Shown here one piece after another: positions 6,801 through 60,420 of a DNA stretch of 64,000 nucleotides (position 1 is its first letter; the number at the start of each line of letters is the position of its first letter). Under the pieces are notes generated by a model. It worked only from the letters and a program-made list of their open reading frames with translations, had not been told where the DNA came from and did no database searches. A program made the position numbers and the translations under genes. Location: contig JAHQIY010000004.1 in assembly GCA_019054805.1 (NCBI GenBank), positions 6,952,501 to 7,016,500 of the forward strand. The letters are read 5' to 3'. This DNA is from Brachionus manjavacas (taxonomy: Eukaryota > Rotifera > Eurotatoria > Ploima > Brachionidae).

Positions 6801-7116
6801 GCAAAATTTGCGTTCATCGAGTAATGGAAAGACCGGATTTTCAAATGAAAATGGATCAGAAGAAGCGTCCATAAAAAATGTTGAAAATGAATTTGATGAT
6901 CAGTTAGACGAGGTTGACTTTACCAATGGAAATACATCAAAGAATTACTTGAAAGAGAGCCAAAAAAATCGTCTTGGAGTTGACGAAAACAGCAAAAGCC
7001 GCTTATCTACTCCATCCCCAAGTCAATTTGCAGGCAACAGATACGATCGTGACAAATGTAGTCAAGGATTCGTAAATAAAAGAAAACTCAGTCAACATTT
7101 AGAGGCAAAGTATTAA
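3813..7116 (+). CDS. TRERF1/ZNF541/MIDEAS-like zinc finger-ELM2-SANT corepressor, 5' end missing
   Basis: Three exons are supported: 3813-3918, 4070-5801 and 6587-7116, with matching phases and GT/AG introns (the last intron is 785 nt). The first encodes a C2H2 finger, [20 protein letters not shown], whose [10 protein letters not shown] core is what I remember for TRERF1 and ZNF541. The second is a long low-complexity Asn/Ser/Gln-rich segment with a short poly-Ala run (near 4790-4820). It ends in an ELM2 domain starting at [13 protein letters not shown] (about 5480). The third opens with a SANT domain ([20 protein letters not shown] to YYLWKKV), then a basic/acidic tail and a degenerate C-terminal finger. 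In the family ELM2-SANT recruits class I HDACs (MiDAC-type complexes) in the nucleus; that role is inferred here. Upstream exons and the start codon were not found and may lie outside the window. Confidence 0.85.
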
Positions 7117-11272: not shown

Positions 11273-11840
11273 TTAGTAGTAGTAATAATTATAATTGCTA
11301 CGCTTTCGCGTTAAGTCCGGTTATATCCAGACCATAAGCAATAATTTAGTCTTTCAAAAGTATGTCTAAATTAGTTTTAAAAATGTTTGTTGATTTTGAT
11401 TCTATAACTTTGTTTCCAAGCTGATTCCAATCATTGACTATTCTGTTGGTGAAAAAGTTGAATCTTGGTGCACAGTTTTTGACAATTTCTCTTCTTAATC
11501 TGTAGTTGTTGCCTCTTGTTTTATTTACACCAAAAACCTTGTCTGGTTGTTTATACCAGTTGACTTGATCGTAATTATTGAGCAACTTAAACATTTGTAT
11601 TAAATCACCTCTCTTTCTTCTTGTTTTAAGTGTTGTAAGTTTTAGCCTTCTTAGTCGTTCTGGATACTCTAGATTCGATAAACCTGAGATAGAACGCGTT
11701 GCTCTTCTCTGAACCTTTTCAAGCGCATCAATGTCCTTCTTTAGGTATGGGTTCCATGCCGAAACAGCAAACTCTAAATGAGGCCGAACCAGACTCTTAT
11801 ACATCTTACAAATAACGTTCTCACTGCGAATAATTTAAAT
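11273..11840 (-). mobile_element. LINE (CR1/Jockey-like) 3' end, 5'-truncated
   Basis: The minus strand has an unbroken 152-codon frame (11804-11346) for the reverse-transcriptase C-terminus: MYKSLVRPHLEFAVSAWNPY, LEKVQRRATR, RRKRGDLIQMFKLLN and FFTNRIVNDWNQL. Homology continues upstream (RSENVICK) to about 11835, where the copy is truncated. After the stop come about 60 nt of UTR, a hairpin ACGC-GAAA-GCGT (11300-11311) and a TAC/TAA-rich tail (11273-11287). Frame integrity suggests that it is younger than the 1.6-2.7 kb copy. No target-site duplication was established. Confidence 0.85.
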
Positions 11841-25500: not shown

Positions 25501-28500
25501 ATTATAATTTTGAAAAGGATAGCCGGCTGTGATTTAAAATTTTTATGAAATTTGAAATTTTATCTTAGTATTTTTATTACCTTGAGTTATAAAAAATTCA
25601 TAAAAAATGTTAAATAAATGATCGTTGATTTTCACTTATTCAAATTTTTCTTTAAAAAAAAATTAACTTTATAAAACACAATTTTTTTAATTTAACATTT
25701 TATATTTTTAGTGCAGATTTTCTTTAAAAAACTTATTTCTAAATATTTAATAACAAGCTTTCTTTAAGCGTGGAGGTATCGAACGATTAGTTTATCAATA
25801 CCACTTTACCGATTGGCCGGATCATGGCGTGCCATATTACATACTTCCAGTTTTGTCCTTTATCAAAAAGTCATCTCGTTCTAATCCGGAATTGGGTGGC
25901 CCTATTGTAGTCCATTGCAGTGCTGGTGTTGGACGAACCGGAACTTACATCGTAATAGATGCAATGATGAAACAAATCAAACACAAGGCTACAGTTAACA
26001 TTCACAATTTTTTGAAACACATTCGCCATCAACGAAATTACTTGGTTCAAACCGAAGAACAATTCATATTCATTTATGACGTACTCCTGGAAGCAAATAA
26101 AAGTGATGAGACCGAATTGAATGACAAAAACATTGAGTCTTACATTAAAAAACTAAATGAAGCAGTCTCACCAGATGGTACCAAGCTAATTGACAGACAA
26201 TTTGAACTCATAACCGAGTTTAAGCCCAAGGATTATCAGATTTCTGCTGGAAACATGAATTTTAACCTAGAGAAAAATCGAACTCAGAGCATTCTTCCTG
26301 TAAATAATAGCCGAGTAGTCTTGGCTAGAAAACCTGGTATCGAGGGATCCGAATACATAAATGCAACCTATCTAAATGTAAAATTTACTTTTAATCTCCA
26401 CAAATACCACAAACTCAGATTTTAGACAAAAATAGGCTAATATCAAATGAATACTTATTTTTTTTGTATTGAAGATTCTAATTTGTGATTTTTTTTAAAT
26501 AATATAATTAAAGTTAAAACTAAAGTTCTTGAAAATCTTTACAATCATTTTAATCTTTTCATCAAGTTCGCTAAAGTTCGATATAATTTCAATAGTTTTT
26601 AAAAAAAATTTATAAATTTTGAAAAATGCAAATTTGTATTGAAATTTTGTATCAACTTTAAATTCAACTTCAAAAAATTTTTGTTTTCCTGAAAAATGAA
26701 TAACATAGGCAAACTTGACATTCATTTTTCAGATTTTTATTTTAAGATGGTACAAAATTTGGAGGAGATCTTAAATCTTTTAAGAATTTATTCTCCTTAT
26801 TCTTCAAGAAACCATTCCAGTTTTAATGAGTTGAAATAAAATTCATAAAGGTGCAGATTAAAACTTGAGGGAATTTTAAATTGTTTAGTTTTAAAAATAT
26901 GATTATGATATTTATATTAATTATACAAGTGTCATAATGAGCAATTTTGTTACACCATTTTTGGTAGTTATAGTATGCTATTTAAAAAAAATAAAAAAAA
27001 ATAAAATTTTTGATCTCTTTAATATTTAAACTAAGTTAATGTTTTATAAATTTTTTCAAATTCAAAACACAATGTAACATGCTTTGTAGCTTTTGACTAA
27101 TCTATTAATATTATTAATAATTATGTGGGCAGATCTGGTCTTACAATAGATTGCCAGTCTATGGGTCAACAAATTGTTGAGTATTTATCTTTACGGATTA
27201 GGAAAAATTGAACCAAGTAGGGTGAGGTTCCTAAATTTTATGAAAGTACCTTAAACTAATTTAAACATTGCTTTAAATATTTAAATATGTATCGACACAA
27301 CATTAATACCATTCTGAACTCATTGAGTATTTTTTGATGGCTACCTCTCGGGATCATTTTTGAAAAATAAATATACTCAATGATCGGACCTTGTCTATGG
27401 ACTTACTTTAAAAATTTATGCTTTTAATAAGCCATTTTATTTGGCGTCTGGGCTTAGCTCGTCATCAGATATTGGCAAAGGTGTTTCTATAACAGTTAAA
27501 CAGGCATCAGTTAAAATTTTTTACACTTGAAGAACTCACAGAATATTATTTCTATCAATTTAAATTCAAAAATTGTTCAAAATATTACCAAAGATTCATA
27601 AAAGTGAAATTTTTTATTATTCTAATAGGATTAGAAAAAATATTTAAATTTATACAATAGATAAAAATTATTTTCAAAATTTTAGTTTGTTGGAAAAAGA
27701 TGTTTTTTCTTTTAAAATAACAAATAAAAATATGTTTTTTTTTATTTTGAAGGGTTGTAATCGCCAAGATGAATTTATAATCACTCAGTATCCAATGGAA
27801 AATACAAAAACAAGCTTTTGGCAAATGGTATGGGACAATAATTCAAGTCAAATAGTTGTGTTGAATTCTGAAGACACAGAAGAGTGCATGCCTTATTGGC
27901 TTCAAGTTGGTGAGCCGATGAAATGCGACAGTTTCACCGTAATTTTAAGAGAGGAAAATTTTGACATGGACTTCGCTGTCCGTGACTTCTTGCTTCAATC
28001 AATAGACGAAGACTATGAATTTACGTGCCGCATGATAACAGCCAGCTACTGGCCAGACAGTTGCACTCCAATCAAGAGCGCTTTTGACCTCATCAACAAA
28101 GTCAAACAATTCCGATTACAAATGATCAACTCAAACATAAGCAACACAATTGCGTCTAATTACGCCAATTTCAACACAAATCAATCGCCTTTGATTGTTC
28201 ATGATCTTGTTGGAGGACACCGAGCTGCTGTTTTTTGCGCCCTGTTTACCTTTCAAGATTCAATTTACTTGGAAAATAGCTGCAATGTTTACGAAATAGC
28301 TAAAATGTACCATCTCAAAAGACCTAACTTATGGTCTCATAAATCAAATATCCAAACACTGTACGAAGCAGTTCAGAGCTTGTTCGACGAAATAAACTCA
28401 AGCAATCAATATCAATTTAAAACTTATCTAAATATGAATATAGAGAACCATTTTAATTTCATGTACAGTCAATCAATGTCGGTGGCAAATTTGGCGTCCA

Positions 28501-29180
28501 AAGCTCCTCCACTGGTTCAGCCAAATACTTCGACACTTCCTAATTTGTCCAACAAAATTGATGAACTCAAGAATGGCGATACCGCGGCCTCAAAATTACA
28601 CGGGGTCTACAAGAGCGAATCTCACGATCACGTGATCAAAAATCCTACAAAAATCGAGACCAAAAAAGCAACCAAAATGGAACAGAACGCCAACAAATCA
28701 ATATTGAATGATCTGCCAAAAATTTTACCTTTTTTGAACGAGAATAAAAGTGGTGGCTCTCATTTTGGAACCAAAAAAGCTAGAAAATTTATGAACACAA
28801 TGATGATGAAGAGTACCACATTTAGAAAAGCCCTGTTTCCTTTGATAATGGGAAATCAGAAGAATGAAAGTGCAAAAACTGATGTAGTTGAAGTAGAAGC
28901 GGCGCTCAGCAACAATTTTGAAATTAAGGTCGACGAAGTTAAGAAACTTGAAACAGCAACATCCTCCGAAGGCACTAGTTCATCTGCAGCTGGATTTTCT
29001 TCGTCTACTCTCGCTTTGTCAACAACCGCCATCACCGCAAATGAATCTATCAGCTCGACCAGCAAAGCAGTAAATGCACTCAGCCGAAACAGTTCGACTT
29101 GTAATTTGGCCAAATCAAATGCATCTACTTCAAAAAATACCTCAGTCGAAAGGCTTAACGCTATTCAATCGTGTAAATAA
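13534..29180 (+). CDS. Receptor-type tyrosine phosphatase, R5 (PTPRG/PTPRZ/Ptp99A)-like
   Basis: Fifteen exons: 13534-13600, 13666-14163, 16544-16661, 16728-17985, 22274-22646, 23266-23359, 23424-23683, 23756-24079, 24234-24325, 24379-24475, 24529-24605, 24656-24790, 24841-24975, 25769-26377, 27753-29180. They sum to 1,854 codons plus stop. Order: signal peptide; an Ig-like domain (KCDL...WF...YLCKL); a fibronectin III-like segment ending [13 protein letters not shown]; a long unassigned ectodomain; one membrane helix (about residues 775-797, [18 protein letters not shown]); a Ser-rich linker; and two phosphatase domains. D1 keeps KNRY, the WPD loop (DWPDHGVP), [10 protein letters not shown] with Cys about 1226, and QTEEQ, so it should dephosphorylate phosphotyrosine in the cytoplasm. 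D2 has HDLVGGHR where HCxxGxxR belongs and should be inactive. The Ser/Thr-rich tail follows D2. An AATAAA lies at 29252. The R5 carbonic-anhydrase domain was not found. Confidence 0.9.
14365..14795 (+). mobile_element. LINE reverse-transcriptase C-terminal fossil in phosphatase intron 2
   Basis: The plus strand reads [20 protein letters not shown] near 14,370, a typical segment after the LINE RT core. Near 14,600-14,795 it reads a 60-residue frame ([21 protein letters not shown] and NKNPLCN) that resembles the extreme C-terminus of the same kind of LINE. Stops and shifts separate the parts. It lies wholly within the intron and in the sense direction of the host gene. Confidence 0.65.
15093..15151. 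repeat. 11-bp tandem repeat
   Basis: Five exact copies of TGAATCCTTTA followed by TGAA, within phosphatase intron 2. Perfect identity implies recent expansion, so copy number is probably variable. Confidence 0.95.
15487..16139. mobile_element. 0.65 kb inverted-repeat element (MITE-like)
   Basis: About 48 bases at 15487-15534 match 16091-16139 in reverse complement with few mismatches (shared core AGCTAAAATAATAA). Weaker pairing extends inward to about 70 bases. The interior has an 80-codon minus-strand frame (15919-15677) with an [23 protein letters not shown]..., which I do not recognise. Size, inverted ends and intronic location suit a non-autonomous DNA transposon. No target duplication could be fixed. 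Confidence 0.7.
15677..15919 (-). CDS. 80-aa unrecognised frame inside inverted-repeat element
   Basis: It starts at an ATG and ends in YFVDKCQNT. Composition is ordinary for protein (aromatic, Lys and Gln residues mixed) rather than the Phe/Lys/Ile/Asn bias of random AT-rich frames. No family match from memory; it may be a transposase remnant. Confidence 0.3.
   Translation of the reverse strand: MIQFVNFLAYKTKINNHQLYQLVTQHGIIRGWNVRTSFQFFKQILIKSKYYDLREINGLHYITGSQGFVKCYFVDKCQNT
17986..22273. other. 4.3 kb intron 4 of the phosphatase gene
   Basis: Donor GTAAGT directly after 17985, acceptor TTTTTTTTAG before 22274, phase 0. It contains a Tc1-like fossil, a separate arginine-rich frame fragment on the minus strand near 18,930-19,120 that I cannot assign, and two copies of a 40-base word at about 19,697 and 22,085. 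The rest is A/T-rich filler. Confidence 0.8.
19235..19700 (-). mobile_element. Tc1/mariner transposase fossil
   Basis: The minus strand reads [11 protein letters not shown], then [20 protein letters not shown] (family: W..V.FSDESKF, carrying the first catalytic Asp). Further on it reads [19 protein letters not shown] (family: QQDNAPCHTA..., the second catalytic Asp). Multiple stops and shifts lie between the blocks, and the third acidic residue region is not recognisable. Terminal repeats were not found. Old, dead copy. Confidence 0.75.
24976..25768. other. Phosphatase intron 13, A/T filler
   Basis: A 793-nt intron between the exon ending at 24975 and the exon that opens with the WPD-loop segment. 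Nothing else is visible in it. Confidence 0.7.
26378..27752. other. Phosphatase intron 14 with an unassigned patch
   Basis: A 1.4 kb intron splitting D2. Between about 27,120 and 27,500 the sequence is visibly less A/T-biased than its surroundings and may be an old repeat, but I could not match it to any protein or RNA pattern. Confidence 0.5.
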
Positions 29181-30585: not shown

Positions 30586-33500
30586 TTAAGAATATGTTTC
30601 TCTTCTAACCCAACCATTGGGATTCTCTCTCAAAAAGTACTTTCGTATTTCATCATAAACAAAGAGTAAAATTCCAAAAGGTATTGACATAAACCACCAT
30701 GATATTCTTTAAAAAATTAAATAAATTAGTAAAATAGTTTTTAATTCAAATTTTTACTTTAAAGGACACATTTGAACCACTCCATTTACTCCGGGAGTAT
30801 AAACCAAGAATAAAGCGAGACACACTTCCACAAACATGGCCGCATTTAGAGCAATATTTCTGTACGATAGAAAACATTTAATTATCAATTTTAAAATTAG
30901 AGGCTTATACCCTAATCCTTGAGTGAAAATTGAATTTAGTCTTGTCTTGCAAACCAATACAGAAAACATTTGAACCATAACTACCGACACAAAAAAGCCA
31001 GTTTGGCTTGTTCGTTCTAGAATTTTTCTTTGCTCATAAGTCTTTTAAAATAATAAAAATTAAAAAGATAAAAAATAAATGAAAAGTTACCCATTCTTGA
31101 CCATAACTGTCCATCAGATCATTTACTGACTTTGAATTCCATTCCCTTCTTATTCCAGAAAGTCGAGATGGTAAAAATCCATTTTGAGCCATTATCATAG
31201 TATAAGTAAAATAACCAGCTGTTGCTACTATCATTCCATATTGCAAATATGAGAGTAAAATCAAACTCAAAACATTTGAAATAAAAAAAATTAAGTTTAA
31301 AAAATTCAAAATTACTTTGAGTTGACCAAACGATCTTTTTTTGAGTTACGTGGAGGTCTTTTCATTATATCAGACTCGGATTTTTCATAAACAAGCGAAA
31401 TAGAAGGTATCAAATCAGTGCCTAGATCAATGCATAGAATGGTGATTGCTCCCAAAGCTAGTGGAATATTTCCAACAACATAGACAATAAATGGAGCTAG
31501 CTCAGGAACTTTTGAAGATAAGGTATATGTGATGGATTTTTTTAGATTATCAAATATCAATCTGCCTTCCTCGATAGCTATTTCAATCGAGGCGAAATCA
31601 TCGTCCAGAAGTATCATATCTGCGGCCTCTTTGCTCACATCACTTCCAGCAATGCCCATTGCTATTCCAATATCAGCTTTTTTCAGTGCTGGCGAATCGT
31701 TAACACCATCGCCAGTCACTGCAACCACAGCGCCTAATCTCTGACAGCTTTCCACTATTTTCACTTTTTGATAAGGAGTGGTGCGCGCAAAAACTATCTC
31801 TGGATACTTTCTCAACATTCTATCCAGTTCACAATTAGTCAAAGTCTTGAGCATATCGCCAGTTACCACAGCTGCCTTGGGCACATTCGGATCTATTGAA
31901 GAAACATTTACACCATATCTTTCCGCAATATCCTCAATAGTTTCAGTTGTAATGATTCCGACAGACTTGGCAACGGCTTTAGCTGTCAGTGGATGATCTC
32001 CTGTGATCATAATGACTCTTATACCAGCAGTCTTGCATTTATCAACTGCATCAGAGACACCAACTCGTGGAGGATCGAGCATGGATACCAAACTTATGAA
32101 TCTCATGTGATCAAGCGGAAAATTTGGCTCTTCATTTTCATCTAATTGAAAGTAATAGTCAACAGTATAAACTTCAGGATCAAGTCGAAAATCACACACA
32201 GCCAAAACTCGTTCACCATTTTTGGCAAAATTTAAACAGGCTTTTTCAATTTTTCTTCTCCATGTTTCGTCTAGAGGAAGATTTTGATCATTTATGAAAA
32301 TCTCCTTTGACTTGTCAATCAGTATGTCTGGCGCACCGAGCACCACTACCAATAGGCGATCATCTTCGTCGTTTTCAAATGTGCTGAATATGGATAGTTG
32401 ATATTTTTTGGTCGAGTTGAATGGAATCTCGAAAATACGGTGATGTTTTTGACGGAAAATGTTTACATTTTGATGGGTGATTTCCATAAATTTTAGTAAG
32501 GCTATTTCAGTTGGATTCCCTTTGCTAAAAAAATAAAAATTAATTAATTTTTTCCAATTTTTAAAATTACCAGTGTCTCAAGTGAATTGATGATTTTGAT
32601 GCATTTTTGTGTTGATCTTCAAAGATTGCATTTGATCCGAGCATACAACAGGTAGAAAGCTCTTTCCAGCATGAAACCTTTTTTTTGGCAAACTTAACCT
32701 GGATTTCCAGCGAATCGGCTGTGTAAAATCGATCGTTCAGCCAAACGTTTGAGACAATCATTTTGTTTTGAGTCAATGTTCCGGTTTTATCTAAATAAGA
32801 AAAATTTAAAACAAGAATGAATAAAAAAATAAAAAAAAATAAAATACCTGAACAAATAACTGTGGTCGATCCGAGAGTTTCGACTGCTTCTAAATTTTTG
32901 ACATAACAATTTTTTTTAGATATACGCTTGGCTATTGAAGTGAGAGCAACAGTGATGGTTGCCAATAGACCTTCAGGTACTTTGGCGACCAGAATACTTA
33001 TGAGAAAAATAATAGAATCCAACCAGAAGTATCCATATAACAGAGAAATAAAGAAGAACAATATTCCAATTATTAAAGCTGCTATGGAAATCGAATGTAT
33101 AAAATGGGTTATTTCGCGGCTTAGAGGAGTAGACCAGAATTCAACCTCTAAATAGGCTAAATAAAATTATTATTTTGGAAAATCGAAATTGATTTTACCC
33201 GATGTAAGAGAGGCTATCCTTCCCATAAATGACCGATCACCTGTTTTTATTACTACTCCAGCACCAGATCCTTCAATGACAAGTGTTCCCAAAAATACTA
33301 AATTTTTGCTTTCCAAAGGCTCCAGATTAGTGAAAAAAGTGGTTCTCAATTGAGGTTTGGACTCTCCTGTCAAGGAAGAATTATCAACCTAAAATAAAAT
33401 AAAATTTTTGCTCTTAAAAATAAATCGACGCACATATAACTTCTCAGCCTCGAATATCCTCAAATCAGCAGGAATCTTATCACCAGCATTTAACAAAACA

Positions 33501-34267
33501 ATGTCTCCGACAACCAAATTTTCGACCTTAATTATCATTATGACTCCATCTCGAATCACTCGTGCTTTTTGTGGTACTATATTTTGGAAAGATTTTATTA
33601 TATTTTTACATTGCTCTTCCTAGTGTAAAATTGAAAAATATAATGCAAAAAAACTAATTTGAATATTTACTTGATAAAATGAGAAGCACCCAGAGATCAA
33701 ATTGACAAATACTAATGCTATACCGAGCCAAAGACTTTCTTTGAAATGATCATTGCTTTTCAAAGAGTGTATACCATAAGCAATAAAGCAAAGAACTGCG
33801 CCTATAAGTAACAAAATGCCGAAACCACCAAATAAGCTTTGTAAAAATAAAATTATTTTGGGACTCTTAGGCTGAGGTGTAAGCACATTTGGACCATCTT
33901 TGTCAAGCAATTCATAAACCTGGGAATGACTTAGCCCCTTTATTAGAAAAAAAAAATTTTTCTTCAATAAAAATATAAATTTTAATATTAACTCTGTCAA
34001 TATCTGTGTCAAGTTTTTGGATTAGCTCTTCAAATGGAATTATATGCTCATCCTACATTTAATTATTAAAATTAAATTTAAAATTTTATTTAAGTGAATT
34101 ACCCATATTGTTGCATTATCTCTTTCATTTGACTTTTTGGTGATCCGATTTAGCAAGGGTACTTTGGATTTTTCATGCTTGGCCTCCTTAAGATTAAAAA
34201 GATGTTCATTACCTCCGAATGTTATAAGTTTAAATGCCACTCTACCATTACTGTTTAAATTTTTCAT
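30586..34267 (-). CDS. ATP1A: Na+/K+-ATPase alpha subunit with lysines in TM4 and TM5
   Basis: Twelve exons (transcript order): 34103-34267, 33993-34052, 33671-33937, 33434-33619, 33199-33388, 32848-33156, 32571-32790, 31316-32524, 31091-31265, 30911-31041, 30758-30859, 30586-30706. They give 1,044 codons plus stop, normal for the family. It is a P-type IIC pump of the plasma membrane. [14 protein letters not shown] (phosphorylated Asp about 393), [11 protein letters not shown], the TM4 PEGLL Glu and both TM6 Asps (DLGTD) are present. Differences from ordinary pumps: VAKVPEG (Lys 348) for VANVPEG; SSKVPE (Lys 804) for SNIPE; VQMFS (Ser 954) for VQWAD; VLGAP (Leu 528) for MKGAP; and the C-terminus is RRETYS for KETYY. 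HK-ATPases carry their TM5 Lys one residue earlier, so this is not that family. No beta subunit gene is nearby. The long N-terminal exon before the [10 protein letters not shown] segment is less certain. Confidence 0.92.
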
Positions 34268-38656: not shown

Positions 38657-41600
38657 TTAATCGCGCAATTTTGTCAAAATTTCATTTAATTTTTGAGTTA
38701 TTAATGAAAAATTTTCACTTTGCTGTTCGATTATCTTAATTAAAAAAATTGAACAAAAATTAACAATTGTTTTTTGTTTACCTTTGTTTTGAAGAGATCA
38801 AATTCATTTTCCAATCTATTCAAAGCTTTTTGTAGCTTTGGTTCAACTGATTCATCTCTAAATTATAGCAAGTTTAAATTATAATATTTTGAAAATAAAA
38901 TTTCACATTTCATTAATGTCACTTAAATCCTGTCTGCTGTGTTCACCATTTTTTTCCAAATAAAATTTATCTCGGTGATACATTTCAAATTTTACATAAA
39001 CATTTTTGGCCATATCGTCTACATTCTGGATTCCTATTTTTGGGATTTTTTTAAATATGTTTTTAAAACAAATAAACTTAACTAACTAAATTTTTCACTT
39101 CTCGTTGGATAACTTCCTTTAAAGTATCCACGAATATAACTTATTAAAAAATAAGCGTATTCTACAATTACAAAAGGAGGGGGAACAATTGTTTTTTCTG
39201 CAAATTCTTTGATACCAGTAAAACGAATGAATTTGAAATATTTAGTACTGTTTATATTTATCTCTTCAACTGTTGATCTAAATGTGAATAAAAAATATAT
39301 TTTTTTATGGGAATTTTAATAATAAGCCTACGTGAAAGTTGCGATTATCATGTTCAAAAGCAAAAGGTTACAGGCGACCGTATAGAAAGCAAAACCAATG
39401 TATAGGAATAAACTTGACAAGCTTTGTTCACAAATTTTATCTTCTCGATTTGTGCCATTTATTTTTACATTAATGCAATTAAAGTCTAAAAAAATTGAAA
39501 ATTAAAAAAACTAAATCCTTTCAGTATACTTTACCATTAAATTCGTCTAAGATGTCTAGTAATTCTCCAAACATGACCCTTAGAACAAGTGTTTTTAAAA
39601 CAGTTAAAATTTTTTCAGAAATAAAATTAAATACCAGAATCCCCTGTTGATTGCGCTTGAAAAAGCGCCAAACGAAAATTTTTGAGTCTTGTTCAAGACG
39701 CTTTCCATAGAAACACTAAAGGGGATCAAAAATACCAAAATAAGCATTATATAGACTGCCAATTTTTTGACCATTTCCTTGATAATGATTATTTTTGGAC
39801 CCCAAAATGGAACACAACTGATCAGTTGAAAAACCTTCATGTACCATAAAATTGAATCGATACAATATAAAACCCTTTTGAGAAAAATATTAAACCACTA
39901 GTTTAATTCTTATTAAAAATTTTTGCCAACCTCGCTACTTCATAGCAATTGTCGGCACCAATATAAAATAAGTTGCCAAATATTGGAGAAAATCGAATCG
40001 CGAAGGCAACAAAAAATATAAAATAAACAAAAAAATCGAAAATATTCCATTTATTGTCCAAATAGAATGCTTTTAGTTTTGAACTTATCTTTTTATCAGT
40101 TGTTTTTGTAATTATTAGCTAATTTATAGAAAACAAAAATTTTTTAAAAACCTTTTTAAAAAAAATTACTTCTCTGATTTCATCCGTCAAATAGATAATA
40201 ACACATATTATAACTACTAGTTCAGTTGCTGTTACTTTTATAAAATCTTTCTTCTCGTACACGGTAATTCTAATGATCGTAGATCGACTTTCCTCGTCAG
40301 GATAATAATCAAATAGTAGAAATCCGGAAAAAACAAAAAGAAATAAAATATAGGAAATCTTAGATAACAAAATATACAAATTGGCTTCAAAAAATACCAA
40401 AAATTTTTACCAAATGATTTAAAAATTTAATTATGGGAGCACTGAAGTAGGAATAAATTCTGTCAATGCCAGTTAATTTGCAATTTGTTTGTCTATAGCT
40501 TAAATTTCGATTTGGAATATTTTCTATGTGATTAAAATCATCAGTAACATATGATTTTTTACCAGATATCATTTTAGCTTGATCTTTTCTAAAATTTTGA
40601 CAAAAAATTAAAAACAAGGTGATTTATTTATTTTATAACTAAAGCCACTAAAACTTTGACTAAAATTACTAATAATTTTGCTTAACTGAAATTATCTTAA
40701 TAATTTATATAAGACGTATTTAAATTATAAATTAAACATAATACTAAAAACCCCAATTTTACACAATACTAATTTATTTTAAAAAATCAAAATCAACTGA
40801 TTGATTTCCAAAATATGATTGACGTTTAGGTTGACTTTCTAGAATTTTTGGGTCTACTTGACCAACATAATATCAAAAGCTTTTTAACATACTAGTGAAA
40901 CTAGTATACTAGTATGTTAAAAAGCTGCTGAATTTTTGAAATAAATAAAAAGTTTTACATAAGAAATATTTTAAATTTAAATCAATTTAAGTAAATTAAA
41001 AAAAAATTATTTAGATTTTTTATCAATGATCTCTCTCATATTTTCAGTCCACCAAGCTTGAGTTTGTTCACAAAATTATTAGACTCTTGTAATTGTCTTA
41101 TTATCAACAAATTTCCACCACACATTTTAGATTAAAATAAAAAATTTTATTCTAATTTAAATTAAAAAGGAAGAAAAATTATTATCTTGTTCAAAAAATT
41201 TCCATTTCGAATGCTTTTTGGCGAATTGTTTGCACTTGCTACCGGGAGGTCATTCAAGTGAAAATTCGGGAAGACTTTTTGAAAAATAGTATTAGTTTGT
41301 CAATCAGATTTTAGTATGTTATTAAGGTGTTTGTTATGTTAATAATGCAGGTATAGTGGGATGAATATTGGGTATGCTGAAAAGTTTTGCTAGTATGTTT
41401 AAAAGTTTTATCGGTATGTTAAAACAACAATCCCAGAATTTTTTGAACCAGAGAAGGCTCGAAGCGAACCAAGAACATGAAGAAGGAAAAAACCTTGGAA
41501 TGTAAGGCAAAGAATTAATTTTTTTAAATATAGATAAAAATTAGAAAAACTAGCATCGAACTTTTTTTTTTAAATAAATTCACATTTTTACATCAATTAC

Positions 41601-43805
41601 GTAATTTTATCAAAAGAAAGGTATTTTCCTATGCATCTAGTAAAATTAGTAATTTTAGTAAAAGAATTAGCTCACGCTATTAAAAAAATATTCTAATTTA
41701 CTTGATGCTGATTTTGGATGAGTTTTCGTCCAACTCAGTTAGATTGATAAGTTCTACGATATCGCTTCTAAAAAAACTGATAGGCATAAAAAGACTCGGA
41801 AAAAATATGTATGGCAACGTGATCTGCCAATTGGGCAAGCAAGGATTAATTTTATCAAACCAAACATCTGTCAATAGTTCTTGAACAGGACTTAAACTAG
41901 TTATGTCATAAGACTGAGCTTTTATGGCCAGTTCTAAAATTGTATGGTTATAAAAAATGTCCTTTTCAAGAATTAATAGGTCTTGAGAAATTAAATCATT
42001 GCTCTCTAAGCATTTTGATATAACTCCAATTATCATATGTTCAAATTCCCTTTAATTAACAATTTAAATTTGTTCCAAAAACTAAAGAATATCAAAGAAT
42101 ACCTGATAATGGTTTCCATACTTTCTTTTAGGTCATCAGGAACAAAATTTTCTTGCATCAAACTCCTAAATGTAATGATTCCTACTAGACAACAAGCAAT
42201 TGGATATTTTGATTTTGACCAGAAATGTTTAGGTAGATCTAGATCATTTTCATTTCCGCCATACAGCAATAGTGACCAAATAAAAAGCTCGTCATATGGA
42301 ACATCACTCACATTTTTTGTCTTATCGTTCGAGTCATATCGTTTAGTCAAGCATGGCAGCATGTAGACATCGTAAAAAATTGATTGCATTGTATCTGTAT
42401 AGTTGGTGCCATCAAAATTACTGTCTTGTTTCTTTTGAATTCTATATAACAAACTGCTTTTATTCTTAAATTACAAAAGTAAGTATTAACAGGAGACTTT
42501 TTGGCAAAGGCAATAGAAAAATGCGATCGCACTTTCTTTCTTCGCTGTTTGATTTAAAAATTTTATGCGAAAATCAATTTAAATCAATCAATATTATTTT
42601 TTTTTAAGTTTAACACTCTCTAAATTTGTAAATAAATGATAAAACAAAATAATCAAAATGTTTGTCAAAATTAATTTCTGCATTTTTGGTTTTTTAAGAC
42701 CGGTTGTATTGTGGTTGAAAACCACGAAGGGTTTTCAAAATGAAAATTTTTCAAAATAAAATTTATCAAAAGATTTTCATCAATTTAAAATGAAAGTAAT
42801 TTTTGTTACTTTCTTCAAAACAAGAATTTAAATGAAAATTGATTCATGGGTTCTTTTAAATGTCAAAATTATTTATCCTTAATGTTTAATCATTTGTATA
42901 TTTTTGGTCTTTATAATTGATACTTTACCTTTGGATGAAGCATATACAACTTTTTGATATATTGGATTTCTATTGACTCCAATTCAAGATTGCAAATTTT
43001 TTCCAATATCTCAAAATCACGAAGTTTCAGTTCTTTTTGTTGAACCCTTGACTATTAAAAATAGAAAAAAAATTTAAATTGTTTTAAAATAAAAATTTTT
43101 TTTTCATTTTTTTGAGTTAATCTATCAAAAACCAAAAACACTTTAGTAAAATTTCAATTTTCATTTCTTAATGTGTTATGGAATTTTTTTATAAGAATGT
43201 CGTAAATTTATGTAAAAATTAGGAATTTTTTTTTTTTGATGAATCCTATTTATTATTAATAAATTATTTTTGACATCTTGAAATTTAGGGTTATTTAATC
43301 TTATAATTTTCATTATTATCAATGTAATTGTCATTGAGAAAATACTAAATAAACTTTTTTCTACATTTTTCTGATTCATGATTAATTAAATTTCTGCAAA
43401 TAAACGGAGTTTTTGATTTTTTTTGTATTACAATGGTATAAATTTTTACTTGGGTATTGGGATTTACCAGAGAATTTTTTGGTAAATTTTTGTACGAATT
43501 TAAACTAGATCGATGAATAGGATTGATACGACTTGCATTTTGTAATACACTTTCGACTTTCGGTTCGTTTAGGTTGCTCTTTAAACATAAAATTTTAATA
43601 TACACAGCATACTTCAGTTTATTTTTTTAATTACTTGGAAATTATTTGAACTTTCGGCCAATTGCTTTTTCAAAATATTTAATAATGGCAACTGCGCTTT
43701 GGACACAGTGGGTTCAGCTATAGCTTCTACATCAGGATTTACCTCGTTCAAATGGTTTAATTTGAGGTGACTTTTAAGATTGAACAACTTTTTGGAGTAG
43801 TCCAT
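38657..43805 (-). CDS. TRPM-type cation channel, short N-terminus
   Basis: Fifteen exons in phase: 43635-43805, 43450-43578, 42929-43051, 42103-42464, 41702-42049, 40411-40588, 40170-40358, 39931-40088, 39635-39874, 39535-39578, 39332-39485, 39084-39277, 38907-39033, 38782-38857, 38657-38734. They total 856 codons. Family words: ELFIWSLLL...FWSKSKYPIA and SPVQELLTDVWF of the TRPM N-terminal half; APIIKF before S1; S3 (NKWNIFDFFVYFIFF); RVLYCIDSILWYMKVFQL in S4; S5 starting GPKIIIIKEMVKKLA; pore FWVMFGELLDILDE, whose FGE resembles divalent-permeable TRPMs; S6 LLLLNMIIATF; and a C-terminal coiled coil. The 650-residue first part of a usual TRPM (nucleotide-binding MHR1-3) is absent. An AG just before the ATG (43813-43814) means that upstream exons may exist. 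Confidence 0.8.
40589..41701. other. TRPM intron with palindrome
   Basis: A 1.1 kb intron. It contains a 19-bp perfect inverted repeat at 40878-40926 and, near 41,340-41,440, several loose copies of a GGTATGTTAAAAG-like word related to the palindrome arm. Confidence 0.6.
40878..40926. repeat. 19-bp perfect inverted repeat
   Basis: AGCTTTTTAACATACTAGT at 40878-40896 is exactly complementary to 40908-40926, with an 11-nt spacer that itself carries CTAGTAT. It could be the collapsed ends of a small transposon. Confidence 0.9.
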
Positions 43806-46130: not shown

Positions 46131-46798
46131 GCAAATCACTGCTAAAATGTTATGCATGCAGAACCGTATTCTTGGAATGATATAAAAGTCATTCAAATAC
46201 CCTACGACGGAAATTATTAAATTACTTTATTGTTCGTTTGTCAGGCCTCAATTGGAGTATGCAAGTGCATCATGGTGTCCATTTTATGAAAAAGATTTGA
46301 ATGAACTTGAAAAAGTTCAACGGAGAGCGACTAAGTTAATCCCTAGTTTGCAAGATCTTGAATATCCAAAGCGTTTATTGAAACTTGGTTTAACTGATCT
46401 TAGAATAAGACGACTTCGAGGTGATCTTATTTAAATGTTTAAGATTGTAAACAATATGGAAAGAGTTAATTTTGAAAACGGGATCAATTTTAGCCAAAAC
46501 AAAATACCTGATACCAGAAGATACGACTTGAGAAGGAATAGCAAGAACCTAATCCGGGAATGTGTAAAAAACTGTCTTCCAAGATACAACTTTTTTACTT
46601 ATAGAGTTGTGAATGAGTGGAACAAATTTCCAGAAGAAATAATAAATGCAAAGTGTCTTAACAGTTTCAAGGCAAAGATTGATAGGTGGTTGGCGAAGCA
46701 TATTGTAACGACTGCTATAGCTTATTAAAGCTTCGCTTGGAGAATCTCCAAGTTGCAGTTAATTTTACTACTACTACTACTACTACTACCACTACTAA
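46130..46798 (+). mobile_element. LINE (CR1/Jockey-like) 3' end, decayed
   Basis: The plus strand reads NRILGMI, then FVRPQLEYASASW, LEKVQRRATK, LRIRRLRGDLI and, after one in-frame stop at 46432-46434, MFKIVNN and FFTYRVVNEWNKFPEE to the stop before 46730. Another in-frame stop lies near 46,183. The 3' end has a stem-loop CTTGGAG-AAT-CTCCAAG (46736-46752) followed by GCAGTTAATTT and a (TAC)n tail from 46766 to 46798. 5'-truncated. Confidence 0.88.
46766..46798 (+). repeat. TAC trinucleotide tail of LINE
   Basis: About ten TAC/ACT units with one interruption, directly at the 3' end of the LINE copy. Confidence 0.95.
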
Positions 46799-48341: not shown

Positions 48342-51300
48342 ATGAAACTGATCAATTCAAAAGATTACGGCTTAATAGGCGTAATATTTTACCTCATTCA
48401 GCCTTTCGAGTTTTATGAACCATTGAACTTGAATGTTCCAGATGAGTATGAGATCCCCACAGGTTGGTTTAAAAAAAATCGAATTTTTGTTTATTGATTA
48501 AAAAATTTTATAGAAACTTTTGTTCTGTGCGATTTGAGCCAAGATTTTTTGCGCAATTACTGTCATAATAATGGAATTTGCTATACACTTGTAGATCATA
48601 GAAAAAGAGAACAAAAAAGTATTTATTCAATATCTGACATTTATTGTTCGTGTCCTACCGAATACACTGGACCACAGTGTGGTAAATAGATAAAATTTAA
48701 TTAAACATTTGCTTTAATTTTGATTTCTAGAGGAAAAAATAAGCCATGAGCAAATAAAGCATCAAAATACCGCGACTCGTGAGCCAAATAGAAATTCAAG
48801 CTTCTCTGAAGCAAAATTGAGCTCTTCGTTGTCTTCAATTGAGTGTCCAGCGCACATTAAGTGTTTAAATGGAGGTACTTGCATTAATGATGCAGTCGAG
48901 GGTTTTAAATGTAAATGTTTATCAGATTACATTGGGTTACATTGTGAAAATAGTAAAAATTATTTTCGAAAATATTTTGTTTTAATCTTTGGTTTTCTAT
49001 CTTAGAATTTACTTGTCCTGATATGAGAATGTGCAATTTAAAATGTGAATTTGGTTTTAAAATAGACCAAAACAATTGTCAAACATGTTCTTGTAGTTGT
49101 GTCAACGAACAAAATTTTTTCGAAGAAACTAAAAATTACTTCAATTCAAAAGAAAAGAAAAAAACATGCACAAAATCATGCAAACTGGGCTTTGTTAAAG
49201 ATGAGAACAATTGCTTTAAGTGTCAATGTCTAGAAGATACTCTTACAACACCGGAATTTTATGACCCTTTTGAAATTCAACCGAAAAATGATCAGCAAAG
49301 CTTTGAAAATTTTTGTCAAGTATTAACTTTTATTTAAAATTTAAATCCACTGGGTAAAAATTGAATTTGTCAAGAATGCAAGATGCCAAGAAAATCAAAT
49401 TTGTAAGTATTTTGACCGAAGCTGGTACATCTGTCCAGCAGAAATGAAAGATTGCAAAATTTTTGACAATTTTTCAAAATTTCCAATTTGCGTTGATAAA
49501 AATCAAAACGGTATTAACAAAAAAAGATTGTGATTTTTTTATTTTTTATTTATTTAAAAGAGGCATGTATGGAAGAAGTTTCAGTAGGAAAGTGTGGAAA
49601 TAGCCACGAACGCTATTTTTATGATCCGATAGACAAAAAATGCAAAAAATTTTTCTATTCTGGCTGTTTAGGGAACCGAAATAATTTTTTAACTATTCAA
49701 GAATGCAATTTATTCTGCCTTAAAGACGAATTAAGTCATCAAAATGTGAAAATAGATTATCAAAATTATCAATTATTTAACAAAAAATTGTTGAATGAAA
49801 CTGCTAATCCTGTTATTCAAAGTGGCATTCAAATAAATGATAAATTATCTTTTTTTTCTACTACAAAAATTGTCACAAATATTTCGTTCACGTCGGTAGT
49901 TCAGCCCGGTAGGTTAAATGAAACAATAGCAAGTAATTTCAATTTAATTTAAAATGATCAATTAGGTATATAATGAAAATTTTTAGATGTAAAATCAGAG
50001 ATTATAAATGATCCTAATACGTGTAACTGGGTCTGTGATTTAGATTGTACATTTGGTTACAAAATTGATTACCGAACAAAATGCTATAAATGTGAATGTA
50101 TCGAGTTGAATATGACTGAGTGTGGTGTACCTTGTTTTCTTCAAGGTACTAGTTCATGTCTTCACTCAATGAGAGCGAATAGTAGACCAAAGTGCGTTTG
50201 TAAGCCTAATTATGACGGTGTTTACTGTCAAATATGTAAGTTAAATTTTTTAATTAATTCTGCTAAAATTAATTTGAAATCTTTCAAGATAAAAAAAGCT
50301 ATAATTTTTCGACTAGAGTAAAAAGATCGCTCAAAATTAACAAACAGATTGCTAACGATATCAAAACGTAATTCAAATTTTATTTTAAAGGTGATTTTTT
50401 TTTAATTTTTAATTTTAAGAAATTTCACTCAAAAGTTATCAATTGAACTTGACATTAGTCAAAACCAAATTGTGGTTAATGAAGTAAAAATTATTTAATA
50501 TAATCATAAAAGATACTTTTAATGATTTGTTTTATTTTTTTAGCTGCGGAATAATCTAAAAGAAAATTTTTTTGTGATAAAATTTACAGTGTATGCACCC
50601 GATTTCACTAACGAAAACAAATTTAATTACTTAGTTAATAAGATTAATGATTTAGTGAGTTTATAATAAAAGGAAAAAACTGAATTTTAAAATTTCTTTT
50701 AGCTTATGAAAAAAAATCTCACGCTAAACGTTTTAAATGAGGAAATTGCTCTTTATCCAAGTAATCAAATAATTAAAATAAAAGAAAATCAAATTTTTAA
50801 TTTTTCATTAATTTTATTAGATTGTGAAAAAAATGAAGAGACAATTTCATTAGGCTTAAGCGAAAACTATTTGTTCTCATCAAATAAATTAAAAAATATA
50901 ATTAGGTAAAATTGATATAAAAATAAAAAAAAAATAAAAAAATTTTAAATAATTTATTTTAGTGATTTAAAATCGGATATTATCCAGGCTTATAAATTAA
51001 AAAGTGGTTCGATTCATTTAGTCAAGGTACGTAACATTGGAGAAAATTCAAAAAAAATTTGTTTGATGATTCTATTTTTATTTTAGCTGAATATTGAACC
51101 AAATATTCAACTTGAAATTTTATTAAAAAATGACCTAAACGATCCGGACTTTTGTGTCAAGTCTTTCAATTTGAAAAATGATGTAATTTAAATTTTAAAT
51201 TAAATTAAAAACATAAATATGTTTTTTTTAGCTTCAATCGAACAACTTCATGCCTACTAAACTAAAACAGAGACTGTTGGACGGTCAGAATTTTTCCCAA

Positions 51301-51654
51301 ATTGGTGACAAAAAGTTAAACTATATAGAGCCACTTGCTTCAGAAAATCTATTTCTATCTCGCAGTTCAGATTTTAACACAATTAATCAAATGACATCGT
51401 CCGTTTTTTTGAATCATAGCATCGCTTATCTTTCAGTTATTGCATCTTCTTTTTTTATAATATTATTTTTAGTTAGTTTATTTGTTGTAAGTTTTTTTAA
51501 ATCAAAACATTTGGCTACTATTAATGAATTTTTAATAAAAAAGATAACTCATTTGAGACGTCGCCAGAATAAAAAGATTGCTAAATTTGATGATTCGGAT
51601 AGCAGTTCTACATTTGAAAACTACGAAAAAGTAAATTTTTATAAAAGCTCTTGA
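48342..51654 (+). CDS. Modular single-pass membrane protein: EGF, antistasin, Kunitz domains
   Basis: Fourteen exons: 48342-48462, 48514-48681, 48731-48952, 49006-49319, 49375-49510, 49561-49908, 49987-50235, 50289-50367, 50420-50483, 50544-50654, 50703-50905, 50963-51026, 51087-51182, 51232-51654. They sum to 865 codons plus stop. Order: signal peptide; EGF (CDLSQDFLRNYCHNNGICY to CSCPTEYTGPQC); EGF (CLNGGTC to CLSDYIGLHC); two antistasin-type repeats (CKLGFVKDENNCFKCQC); a Cys-rich segment; a Kunitz/BPTI domain (CMEEVSVGKC, FFYSGCLGNRNNFLTIQEC); another antistasin-type repeat; EGF. Then come a furin-type site RVKRS, a Cys-poor region that resembles a SEA-like fold (QIVV...FFVIKFTVY), a membrane helix near the C-terminus (IAYLSVIASSFFIILFLVSL) and a short acidic/Ser tail. 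The antistasin and Kunitz domains suggest serine-protease inhibition at the cell surface; this is inferred. An AATAAA lies near 51,951. Confidence 0.88.
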
Positions 51655-53148: not shown

Positions 53149-54181
53149 TTAAAATGATCTATTGCGCACCGATTTTTTGTGCCTAAAAATCGAACTGATA
53201 ATTTTGATTAAAAATAGTAAAACTATAATTATGATCAGTACCAAACCGAAAATTGCTGATGGGCTTTGACCACTCCAATTTTTTGCCAAAATACCTTGAG
53301 AAAAACATATTTTCAAATTTTCAAAATTATAGAAATTTACTATATTTACCTGAAAATGCTATAAATAATTGCAAATAAGGACTAAAAGTGTAACGTAGAA
53401 ATTTTTCCAGAATAAAAATTTCGAGTACAAAATAGGTAAAAATAATTAATGCTGCGAATGCTAGGCAAATAGCGGAAGCGATTTCTCTTTTTCCATTCCA
53501 TTCATAAGTCCATGCAATGGCCATGTTCAAGAAAGTTGCTACTGTAACCCATGTAGCATAAAAAGCAAGACCATTGTTTAAAAGTATTCGATATAGCCAT
53601 AAATATCTAAAAAAAAATTTTATAACAAAAAATTCAAAACCATAATTTTATTCCTACCCTTTCTTTTTGTCCAAAAACACTTCGGCATCGTAAATATTTT
53701 TATGACTAATAACTGTTGCGATATAAAGAGCAATTGTCAGAAGAGCAAGAACAGCAAAACCAGCACTAAAATACTCCTGATCCCAAATAAATAACCATGC
53801 AATGTTGAAGGCATAATTTAAGAAAATAAAGAAAAAAAATAATTTTGTAAAAACTGGCGGTTCTAAGTATAATCTTCCGTAGTCTGTTTTTAAAAATATA
53901 GAAACTACACTGTACAGTATCCAAAGTCCTTGCCAAGTATAAATAATTCCCCAAGTAGAAAACGTCCAACCCGCAGGTGTGATATCAACTGGATGACGGT
54001 CTGATATATTTCCGGTCGCCTGCTTGAAAATTCCGATTGCTGGTGAAGACGCAGTTGCATTTATGAAAACCAACACAACATAAAATAAAAGATTCAACAC
54101 GATCAACAATATATCTAATATGCTATGAGCTTTTGTATTTTGTCTGAGCCCACTTGTTTGAAATGAAGTCGTTTCTTTCAT
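53149..54181 (-). CDS. Multi-pass membrane protein, distantly TspO/MBR-like
   Basis: Three exons in phase: 53658-54181, 53350-53606 and 53149-53294, giving 308 codons plus stop. The protein starts MKETTSFQTSGLRQ and has about seven hydrophobic segments. It contains the tryptophan-rich stretch PAGWTFSTWGIIYTWQGLWI, similar to the FSIWGIIY/WQ pattern of TspO/MBR-related proteins, plus FNIAWLFIWDQEYFSAG. The C-terminus is a last helix followed by a basic tail (RHKKSVRNRSF). Similar uncharacterised proteins occur in marine invertebrates as far as I recall. Ligand and location are unknown. Confidence 0.75.
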
Positions 54182-57100
54182 CTTTAATCCTGATTTAAAT
54201 TAAATTTTTAAAATTTTAGAACTGTAAGATAGATTTATATTAGAAAATTTATTAAATAATTTTTCGTTATGAAATAAAGTCAACCTTAAGATGCTGCATT
54301 AGTCTTATCGTAAAAACTAAATTCAACTTTAATATTTATATTTCGTGATTAAATAATTAGATGATTAATAATTACAAATTGAGAATTTTTCTTGATTAAA
54401 AAGTAATTTATCAAAAAAATTTTGCGCTTTAGAAAAAAAAATTCAATTACATAATTAATTCACGTTTACGAAGCACACATTTTTAAATGTAATAAATCAA
54501 GGTAAAAAATTTAAATTCTGTGCTGGGCTTAACCATCAAAAAAAAAGTTTTGGTTTTAAATTGAATCTTACACAATAGCTTCGAAAGTGAGAATTTTTAT
54601 AACAATTTAAAGAAATTTTGATGTATTTTTTTTTTTTTTGGAACTATAAAAGAACCACTATCGAGCCACAATTACTGTTCAGCTAAAACAAATCGACTTA
54701 ATTTTAATTTATTTCTTTAAAAAATGAAAGAAATTATAAAATTTTTAGAGAATATTTGATTTAACGCTTCTTGGATCTAAATTAAAAACAAATTAAAAAA
54801 AATTAAAAATTTCTAACAATTATAAAATAGGCTGAGCATATGATTTTTTTTTGAGCATGACTCTAGCTTAGATATTTTTATCTTGTTCCGAAATTTTTAA
54901 TAAATAAAAAATATTTACAAGTTATCATGCGTTTAAAATTTAGAATCATATGACCAACGTGACAAAAATCAAAAATAAATAATTAAATTTCTCCATAAAT
55001 AATTAGTTCTTGATTTTAAAATAATTTTTATAAAATTTTAACTTTAATTGAAAAACTAATTAAAACTGATGTGTTCGTAAAAAAGTTTTAGTTGTTTATT
55101 TCGATTTAGAAATTTATCAGTCATATTAAAATTATGCATCCCAGAAAGAATTTCAAAATTTTGAATATTTTTTTAAAAGAAAAAAAATATTTAATTTTTG
55201 TTCTGTTAGTCCAAAAATACATATGAATTAAAGACAAATCATTTTTTTGTCTTTTATTTCTTTTAATTTATAAGTAACTAAATGAAATTAAAATTTGGCC
55301 GGTTAAGTAGTAAAATTCAATGTTGAATAAATTATTAAACTGAATTTATGTCTTCATTTCACCTCATGGGCTAAAATTTTTAAATGTTATTCTTCATTTC
55401 GTTTAATATACCTTTTTTAATATTCTTTTTATTACTTAGACTTGCTTATCCTTTTTTCTTTTATTTTCTTTAATTTTATCTTTTTATCTTTATATATTCT
55501 AAAGGTTCATTAGCTCGGAACAAATAAACAAATAAATTAAACTTAGATAATTTAAATATTAGTCTCAAGAATTAATGGCCGGACACTTTTCTTCTGAATA
55601 AATTAACTAATTTTGTGAATACTTATTTTGTCTTTATTTTTTTTGATAAAGCTTTCGATTGTATTTTCTAAATTAAATAAGCTTCAATAATAAATTAATT
55701 AGTTTATGATTTAAAAAAGCAAAGAAAAATTTAAAAAGTAATTCTTAAGGAGAATTAGAGATACCAAATTTTGAAAATTTAAGATTAGGAAATTTTACCT
55801 AGGACGATTTGAATTTCATTAAAGAAAGAATTATAAAAATGGTTCTTATAAGAACGAAACGCCCGCCTATTGAAGCTATTTTGCAAGTTCATTTTTAAAA
55901 CCAAAATTCGCTTGTTAATGGTAAAGCCCAGCATAGAATTTATTGCCTTGATTTATTAATCAATAAACTACTCAAATTAATACTAAGTTATAAAAGAAAG
56001 TTTTTTGTTTTTATTATTTTGTTTCATGCTGCATAAAAATATATTAGAAAAAAATCATACCAATTTTCAATCATGCCACGCAGAGATCTCAATTAATTCT
56101 TTTAAAAGAAAGATATCAACTCAAAAACTTCCCCACTAGTCATAACATAAAATACTTCAAATAAATCAATCTAAATGCGATTCTGAAATAATTAAAATAA
56201 AGACCTGATAAATAACATTAATTATTTGAAATTATTTGAAAAAAAATTATAATGTCCCACTAAAAATAAATAGTCCAAATTTTTTAAAGATAAATATGTT
56301 TTAAAATTAGATTTTTCAATTAAAAATTATGACTTTTGAAAGCACTCGTTTTTTCACAAAAAACTTATAAAGCTAATATGCAAAATTTGACCCTAATCAA
56401 ATAAAATTATTTTCAAAATATAATTTATTTAGGAAAAATTTAATTGAAAAATTAAAATAAAAAAAGTTATTGTCTAATGATTGTACAATATAACAACTAC
56501 AACACACACACAAAACAAAAAAATCTCTCAAATTAAAAAAATTTCAGGTTCAAAAAGGTTTTTACCTCATAGTCTCAACGGACAATGTCCTTGATTTAAA
56601 ATAAACAAAAAAACAACAACATACTTAAAAATCTTTAGTTTTGTTGAAATTACATACATTTAGTTAATGAAATACAATTATATATGTTGTAATATGTATT
56701 AAAAAAAACAAACCTTGCAAAACAAAGCCTTTTTAATTGTCATTAACAATTTTACCAAGTAATGTTAAATTTTTTCGACTAGAGTGACATGTCGCTAACC
56801 TAGACACTAAATTATGTAATATTATTTTAGGCCTAATCGTCATTTGTAGGCAATATTATTTTTATTAAATTACTTTCTAGTTTTTGATTTCCTTTTGAGT
56901 TCTGGAAATTTTTATTTATTGGTTGGATATCGGATCTGGAAAAGTTAAATAATAAATTAAAATATTTTTTAGGTGTCAGATAAGGAAAAAAAATTTAACC
57001 AGGAAATGGTTTTGTGAAATTCATTTCAAAATATACCAGAACAAGATTTGAAAACACTGATTGTTTTTTTTTCAGAAAATTAAAAATCAGATTTGTGAAT

Positions 57101-59214: not shown

Positions 59215-60420
59215 TAGTTTGGACAAATACCTGGGGAGGATCTCTATAGGTACTATAGTTTCTCAATGATCATTATTAAAATTGGTGACAATTTAAGCAG
59301 TCCTTTCAAAACTACTGAAGGTGTGAAACAAGGAGGTGTTTTGTCGCCGTACTTGTTTAATTTCTTTATTAACTTGATGATTGTACTTTGCACTGATCTA
59401 AATGTTGGTGCAGCGATTGATGATATTACGTACTGTGATCAGATAATCATACTATCACCATCTGAAAAGCAAGCCACAATGTTATTAAAAGTATGTGAAG
59501 AATACGCTGTCCGGTGGAAAATTGATTTCAATGCTTCAAAATTGGCTGCTATCTCTTTTTGTAAAAAGAACATAAACAGTGAGCCTGATTTTAAAATGAG
59601 CAGTAAAACAATAGCAGATGTAACTTCTCTGATTTATTTAGGTTTGCCAATTGGTGATCAATATTCAGTTAATGGATATGTCGAGGAGAAAATGAAAAAA
59701 GTATAGCGAAGTCTGTATTCACTAAATAGCATTGGATGTAGACCAAAGATGATTAAACCGGTGACTGTTGCTTTTTTGTACAAACAGTTCTGCCAATCGA
59801 TTTACAGGTATCACTTGGATAATATTTTCATTTGTGAAAATGGTTTAAAAGAAATTAATATTCGTCAAAATATTATGATTAAACGACTAATTTGACTCAA
59901 TAAGTATACAAAAACTAGGCCTCTAAATAAAGCGCTCAAGTTGGAATCTATCAGACAAAATATAACAATCACAAGATATTTTTCTTGAAACAAATTTTAA
60001 ACAACTCGGTCAGGGTTAAATTTAAGAGTCTCTTATGCAACAGCTACAATGAAAGATGCTCTGATCTACAGTATAATAACATTGAGGCTATTACTAGGAA
60101 ACTTACCAATGAATTAGGTAAAGCTGCAAGCAGGTCCATTCCATTTAAATCTTGTAAGTTATTCAGACAAATACTACCAAGAGACATTAATTATACAATT
60201 AGACAAAGAATGAAAGCAAAAAGACTAACATAAAAATATGCAGAATTCAGGTTTTCATTCAACAAATTAACAAACGAATTGAGTTTTAAATTAAGAGAGT
60301 TTAGAAAAAAAACCTGGTCTAATTTTATTGATAAAATCGGCAAAAATCCAAAATTTGGTAAACCATTCTGGATTAAGATAAACAGATTTAGAAAATCTAA
60401 CGCAAATTAATAAACTTTTG
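59215..60420 (+). mobile_element. LINE reverse-transcriptase debris, second family
   Basis: From 59,266 the plus strand reads a non-LTR RT core: EGVKQGGVLSPYLFNFFINL, then TYCDQIIILSPS where the catalytic YADD box should be, then LIYLGLPIGDQYS. The frame stops at 59,704-59,706 and continues in pieces (LNKALKLESIRQNI, FLKQILNNS). From about 60,080 to 60,410 it reads KLTNELGKAA, LPRDINYTIRQRMKAKRL and, later, KTWSNFIDKIGKNP...FWIKINR, which looks like the linker that normally lies upstream of the RT. Inactive: catalytic Asp lost and frames broken. Confidence 0.75.

Follow-up and report, generated by a model that had tools for sequence, protein, structure and literature searches.

Does the rotifer Brachionus manjavacas encode a sodium pump of the double-lysine type known from the brine shrimp Artemia, and how many ions would such a pump move per ATP? 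The question arises from a locus within the window, by which we mean the whole 64-kb stretch of DNA analyzed, where a sequence-only reading had placed, at 30586-34267, a Na+/K+-ATPase with both cation-path asparagines replaced by lysine.

A complete P2C-type ATPase alpha gene

With reading frame, homology and GT-AG intron ends as guides, we recovered a complete P2C-type (Na,K/H,K) ATPase alpha gene on the minus strand, running from the ATG at 34267 to the stop codon that ends at 30586, with 12 exons coding for 1041 amino acids. The span first proposed is thus the whole gene in the spliced model.

34267-34103, 34052-33993, 33937-33671, 33619-33434, 33388-33199, 33147-32848; minus strand; pump gene exons 1 to 6
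32790-32571, 32524-31316, 31265-31091, 31041-30911, 30859-30758, 30706-30586; minus strand; pump gene exons 7 to 12

All 11 introns are GT-AG and measure 45-57 nt, and the spliced frame is unbroken, with no stop across the 12 exons. An earlier model, with an intron 5 of 42 nt, 1044 amino acids and a three-residue insert, underlies the profile, PDB, identity, alignment, tree and region counts given below, as well as the protein query of viral contigs; we prefer the 1041-residue model, in which the acceptor lies 9 nt further on (intron 5 of 51 nt), the insert is gone and the loop has its usual length, and the identities are the same with it. The N-terminus, whose first 52 residues are without an aligned counterpart, is the least certain part of the gene model. 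GC content is 36.7% in the pump coding sequence as against 26.7% in the whole window; the section of PMC6555955 on five Brachionus assemblies gives a gene GC of 26.4-29.2% and mean introns of 118-392 bp. A motif scan of the 64-kb window recovered no second P-type ATPase, the pump gene being the only one found.

In profile searches, the product of the 1044-residue model scored 1328.8 bits with TIGR01106 (Na,H/K antiporter alpha subunit; cut-off 946.1), whereas the second-best family, TIGR01522, stayed at 466.2 bits, under its cut-off of 798.3. Among the best 60 of 67 distinct PDB sequences, the closest matches were the canonical human alpha3 (8d3u; 1164.5 bits) and pig alpha1 (3wgu; 1163.5 bits), with which it has the domain plan and catalytic motifs in common, while Artemia alpha2KK (8k1l), non-gastric H,K-ATPase (7x23) and gastric H,K-ATPase (2xzb) scored 1109, 1048.1 and 1014.8 bits, respectively. 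The motifs TGES, DKTGT and GDGVND are all present, and the stretch with the beta-subunit contact motif SYGQ is unchanged relative to both Artemia alpha2KK and human alpha3. The motif is missing from some nematode sequences, as stated in a portion of PMC9609216, and the window pump differs from these in retaining it. Motifs that had been described as intact are indeed so for TGES, DKTGT and GDGVND, but not at KGAP, where the lysine (pig Lys501) is replaced by leucine, a change that may weaken ATP binding. Residues are compared here with four comparators, namely pig alpha1, human alpha3, Artemia alpha2KK and gastric H,K-ATPase.

32788-32848 (exon ends); minus strand; split codon (32848 and 32790-32789, across intron 6) of Asp390, the phosphorylated residue of DKTGT
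31097-31108; minus strand; SYGQ motif, kept, with the Ser codon at 31108-31106, then YGQEW
32338-32340; minus strand; Leu525 in the nucleotide domain, pig Lys501 of KGAP (Lys in all four comparators)

Lysines at both ion-pathway asparagines

The two lysine codons lie in frame within the spliced ORF, exactly where they had first been read:

32981-32983; minus strand; Lys345 in TM4 (VAKVPEG), codon AAA; pig Asn324, Artemia alpha2KK residue 308
31510-31512; minus strand; Lys801 in TM5 (SSKVPEL), codon AAA; pig Asn776, Artemia alpha2KK residue 758

The phmmer ranges set the TM4 lysine against residue 324 of 3wgu and 308 of 8k1l, and the TM5 lysine against 776 and 758; the alignment table concurs, and the alignment with pig alpha1 and Artemia alpha2KK, which runs without a shift, bears out their assignment to the Asn324 and Asn776 positions. 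The Artemia study in PNAS of 2023 is said to name the lysines Lys308 and Lys758, to give Lys308 a role and to describe induction by salt; this numbering fits the phmmer positions. Under salinity stress only one Artemia gene is up-regulated, according to an excerpt of PMC3793950. The literature that we found names no other animal with the TM4 and TM5 lysine pair, a silence that counts only weakly as evidence of absence.

Asn-to-Lys is a common change in this AT-rich pump gene. Among the 35 Asn columns common to pig alpha1 and human alpha3, the window pump has Asn in 19 and another residue in 16, five of these being Lys when Lys345 and Lys801 are counted; taking the Lys share of its other changed Asn columns (3/14), the chance that both sites become Lys, given that both change, is (3/14) squared, about 0.05. 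The weight of the pair therefore lies in its place in the ion pathway and its exact match to Artemia, rather than in rarity by itself.

Artemia alpha2KK is, like the window pump, a P2C alpha with Lys at pig positions 324 and 776, SYGQ and the site II ligands. It differs in keeping Asp926, Arg934, the C-terminal Tyr pair and Lys501, all of which the window pump lacks:

30961-30963; minus strand; Ser951 in TM8 (VQMFSVL), codon TCT; pig Asp926 (Asp in all four comparators)
30937-30939; minus strand; Leu959 in the TM8-TM9 loop; pig Arg934 (Arg in all four comparators)
30589-30591; minus strand; Ser1041, the last residue (RETYS as against ETYY); pig Tyr1016 (Tyr in all four comparators)

Thus, where the canonical 3Na:2K signature is Asn324/Asn776/Asp926, the window pump has Lys/Lys/Ser; it carries the Artemia-type lysine pair, with Ser951 in place of the site III Asp and a terminal Ser in place of the Tyr pair. 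Judged by these residues, it appears to be a pump of the double-lysine type known from Artemia, with Asp926-to-Ser as an added unusual change.

Ion sites and predicted stoichiometry

In the relevant passages of PMC5026471, Asn776 coordinates Na+ and K+ at site I, Asp926 is a ligand at site III, and Na+ binding is compromised in D926N; of the 14 Na+/K+ ligands listed there, 11 are kept in the window pump (T774S, N776K and D926S differ), 13 in Artemia alpha2KK and 12 in gastric H,K-ATPase. An arginine in M8 that likely neutralizes the site III aspartate gives 2Na:2K, according to PMC10812997. The window pump also keeps Gln923, Tyr771 and Ser775, as well as the residue at pig position 933. This position, Arg935 in rat, reportedly links the C terminus to Na+ affinity, going by the title of a cited reference.

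We consider it an even call whether the gene encodes a working, beta-dependent P2C pump with a reduced ion load, a fast-evolving extra alpha and not the housekeeping one. In such a pump, the side chain of Lys801 would sit in ion site I and substitute for the ion there, taking the site out of use for both Na+ and K+; Lys345 would assist the remaining K+ site, as is said of its Artemia counterpart; and the loss of Asp926 would weaken or remove Na+ site III, costing further Na+. With site II left, fewer than three Na+ would leave and one K+ would enter per cycle, 1Na:1K with zero net charge being the limit and 2Na:1K being predicted if site III is still functional. Such a pump would move fewer ions per ATP but could work up a steeper sodium gradient. 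With 55 kJ/mol ATP, -70 mV and a K+ gradient of 30-fold, the thermodynamic limits on the Na+ ratio are estimated as 68 for 3:2, about 3,100 for 2:1 and 1.5e8 for 1:1.

At the limit, two of the three Na+ sites would be out at once, site I by the tethered lysine and site III by the loss of the Asp, and an electrogenic Na,K pump would have evolved into an electroneutral 1Na:1K one, reaching an H,K-like stoichiometry yet not turning into an H,K-ATPase. We offer this tentatively, as a reading with the balance of probability well against it. In passages of PMC10812997, Na+ at site II alone suffices for phosphorylation, the bulky mutants studied did not cycle, and pumps with any of several bulky neutral substitutions of the site I/III serine are inactive; the latter imply that cycling can stop when sites I and III are disabled. 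This point, the possible drift at Asp926, the Lys501-to-Leu change and the conserved residue at pig position 933 all count against the reading of a reduced ion load as a whole. The main rival is an Artemia-like pump in which the lysine pair yields 2Na:1K, with Ser951 tolerated and neighboring site III residues still binding Na+ weakly. This we regard as possible though short of probable: the lysine pair is identical, Gln923, Tyr771 and Ser775 are all retained, T774S is conservative, and 2Na:1K is the ratio that the same source, in the part concerned, gives for the brine shrimp pump with its M4 and M5 lysines; however, Artemia alpha2KK has the Asp926 and terminal Tyr pair that are absent from the window pump.

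If the reading of a working pump with a reduced ion load, site III included, is true, the double-lysine solution would not be limited to brine shrimp, and site III would have been given up as a further step. Three questions could then be clearly tested on the protein: the way each ion site determines pump stoichiometry, the sufficiency of site II alone for driving a full cycle, and the reason for an animal to move fewer ions per ATP.

Independent origin of the lysine pair favored

We favor an independent origin of the pair relative to Artemia alpha2KK on the strength of the tree topology. In a tree extended by Drosophila Atpalpha and a partial Artemia alpha-B-like sequence, both Asn/Asn and unverified, Artemia alpha2KK groups with the arthropods (support 60 and 79), leaving the window pump outside. 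To this extent the convergence proposed by the sequence-only reading gains ground, but a clade of the window pump and Artemia alpha2KK costs 8.7 log units on that tree, with an AU p of 0.201, and is thus not rejected. The alternative, descent of both genes from one old protostome double-lysine alpha, strikes us as rather unlikely. Besides the AU result, it can call on the split of window and Artemia sequences from vertebrates, with 90% ultrafast bootstrap in an unrooted tree of five verified or window sequences, yet animal relationships would by themselves produce such a split. The deeper node of a six-sequence tree had a support of 43. Quartets numbered 25 for the window pump with Artemia, 27 for the window pump with H,K-ATPase and 9 for the window pump with alpha3, or 24, 24 and 12, respectively, with pig alpha1 instead of alpha3, long branches blurring the signal. 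At 55 columns uniform in pig alpha1, human alpha3 and H,K-ATPase, the window pump and Artemia alpha2KK both depart; the two carry the same residue in 22 of these, Lys776 included.

Searches of other sequence collections returned no useful relative. A protein query of viral contigs gave 13 pattern stretches with no relatives among them, and an alignment query of the same contigs gave 45 stretches with four relatives at 31-34% identity, too distant to inform; the search of genome contigs gave 80 stretches, again with no relatives. An exact 11-residue pattern occurred in neither genome nor viral contigs, and its Asn form was likewise absent from the viral contigs, so these zeros carry no weight; a shorter Asn pattern was absent from two of four loci checked.

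Divergence and retained constraint

The window pump is a Na,K-type alpha with the Artemia lysine pair, as originally read, but two substitutions in an otherwise ordinary alpha do not describe it: it is strongly diverged and has further substitutions at or near site III and in the ATP pocket. Of the comparators, human alpha3 comes nearest at 54.0% identity, followed by pig alpha1 (53.7%), Artemia alpha2KK (52.3%) and gastric H,K-ATPase (49.4%); Artemia alpha2KK, at 70.1% identity to human alpha3, is far less diverged (70% as against 54%). At 133 of the 517 positions invariant among the comparators (a few tail residues of one comparator being filled in by hand), the window pump differs, the changes including Asp926 to Ser, Arg934 to Leu, Tyr1016 to Ser, Lys501 to Leu and Asn122 to Ser. 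The change at Asp926 could be drift, because it is one of these 133. With Gln111 also changed (to His), the window pump has substitutions at all of the canonical alpha1/alpha3 residues Asn324, Asn776, Asp926, Lys501, Tyr1016 and Gln111/Asn122. We take Gln111 and Asn122 to be ouabain-sensitivity positions. Glu953 to Val was considered as a special sign and rejected, as Glu is also missing there in Artemia and gastric H,K-ATPase.

The changes are unevenly spread: none of the invariant positions is altered in TM6 (0/11), the TM7-TM8 loop with SYGQ (0/15) or TM9 (0/6), as against 4/9 in TM8, 5/18 in TM5, 3/19 in TM4 and 44/94 in the nucleotide domain. Constraint persists in the parts that a pump requires. 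This pattern bears on the reading of the gene as a decaying or non-transporting paralogue with another role, in which the lysines and Ser951 would be relaxed drift in an AT-rich, lysine-rich genome. We hold that to be unlikely: the number of altered invariant positions, the loss of Lys501, the long branch (0.87 substitutions per site) and the frequency of Asn-to-Lys changes in the gene are in its favor, but the 12 exons are intact without a stop, and the catalytic motifs and every invariant position of TM6 are kept. An exchanger of protons or another cation for potassium, resembling the H,K-ATPases in a tethered TM5 lysine and a neutral site III, is more improbable still, for although these belong to the same family, have a TM5 lysine and carry an M8 arginine that, in the part of PMC10812997 concerned, neutralizes the site III aspartate, their lysine lies one residue earlier (pig position 775, Ser in the window pump), the gastric enzyme has Glu at 804 and Tyr at 324 where the window pump has Asp and Lys, the Arg after TM8 is Cys in the window pump, both H,K-ATPases score lower than the canonical alphas, and the identity to the gastric enzyme is the lowest of the four.

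Other features of the window

Outside the pump gene, the window holds the following protein-coding features and retroelement pieces:

25754-29180; plus strand; receptor-type tyrosine phosphatase with two PTP domains (PF00102), the second of which reads VHDLVGGHR as against the active-site HCSAGVGR (Cys to Asp) and looks catalytically dead
39082-42470; minus strand; TRPM-like channel exons lying upstream of the pump gene, with PF25508 on one ORF (29.2 bits) and no Pfam match in the other tested ORFs of this span
48724-51654; plus strand; secreted or membrane protein with EGF-like and Kunitz domains
4070-7116; plus strand; large low-complexity protein with ELM2 and Myb/SANT domains, the arrangement seen in MIER-type co-repressors
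53327-54199; minus strand; small multi-span membrane protein, TspO-like by eye, the scanned ORF 53654-54199 being without a Pfam match
2233-2676 and 11346-11834; minus strand; retroelement pieces
46186-46728; plus strand; retroelement piece
59218-59706 and 61547-63406; plus strand; retroelement pieces

Reverse transcriptase matches were obtained at 59218-59706 and 62867-63406; by eye, the remaining retroelement ORFs look like LINE tails or gag, those scanned being without a Pfam match.
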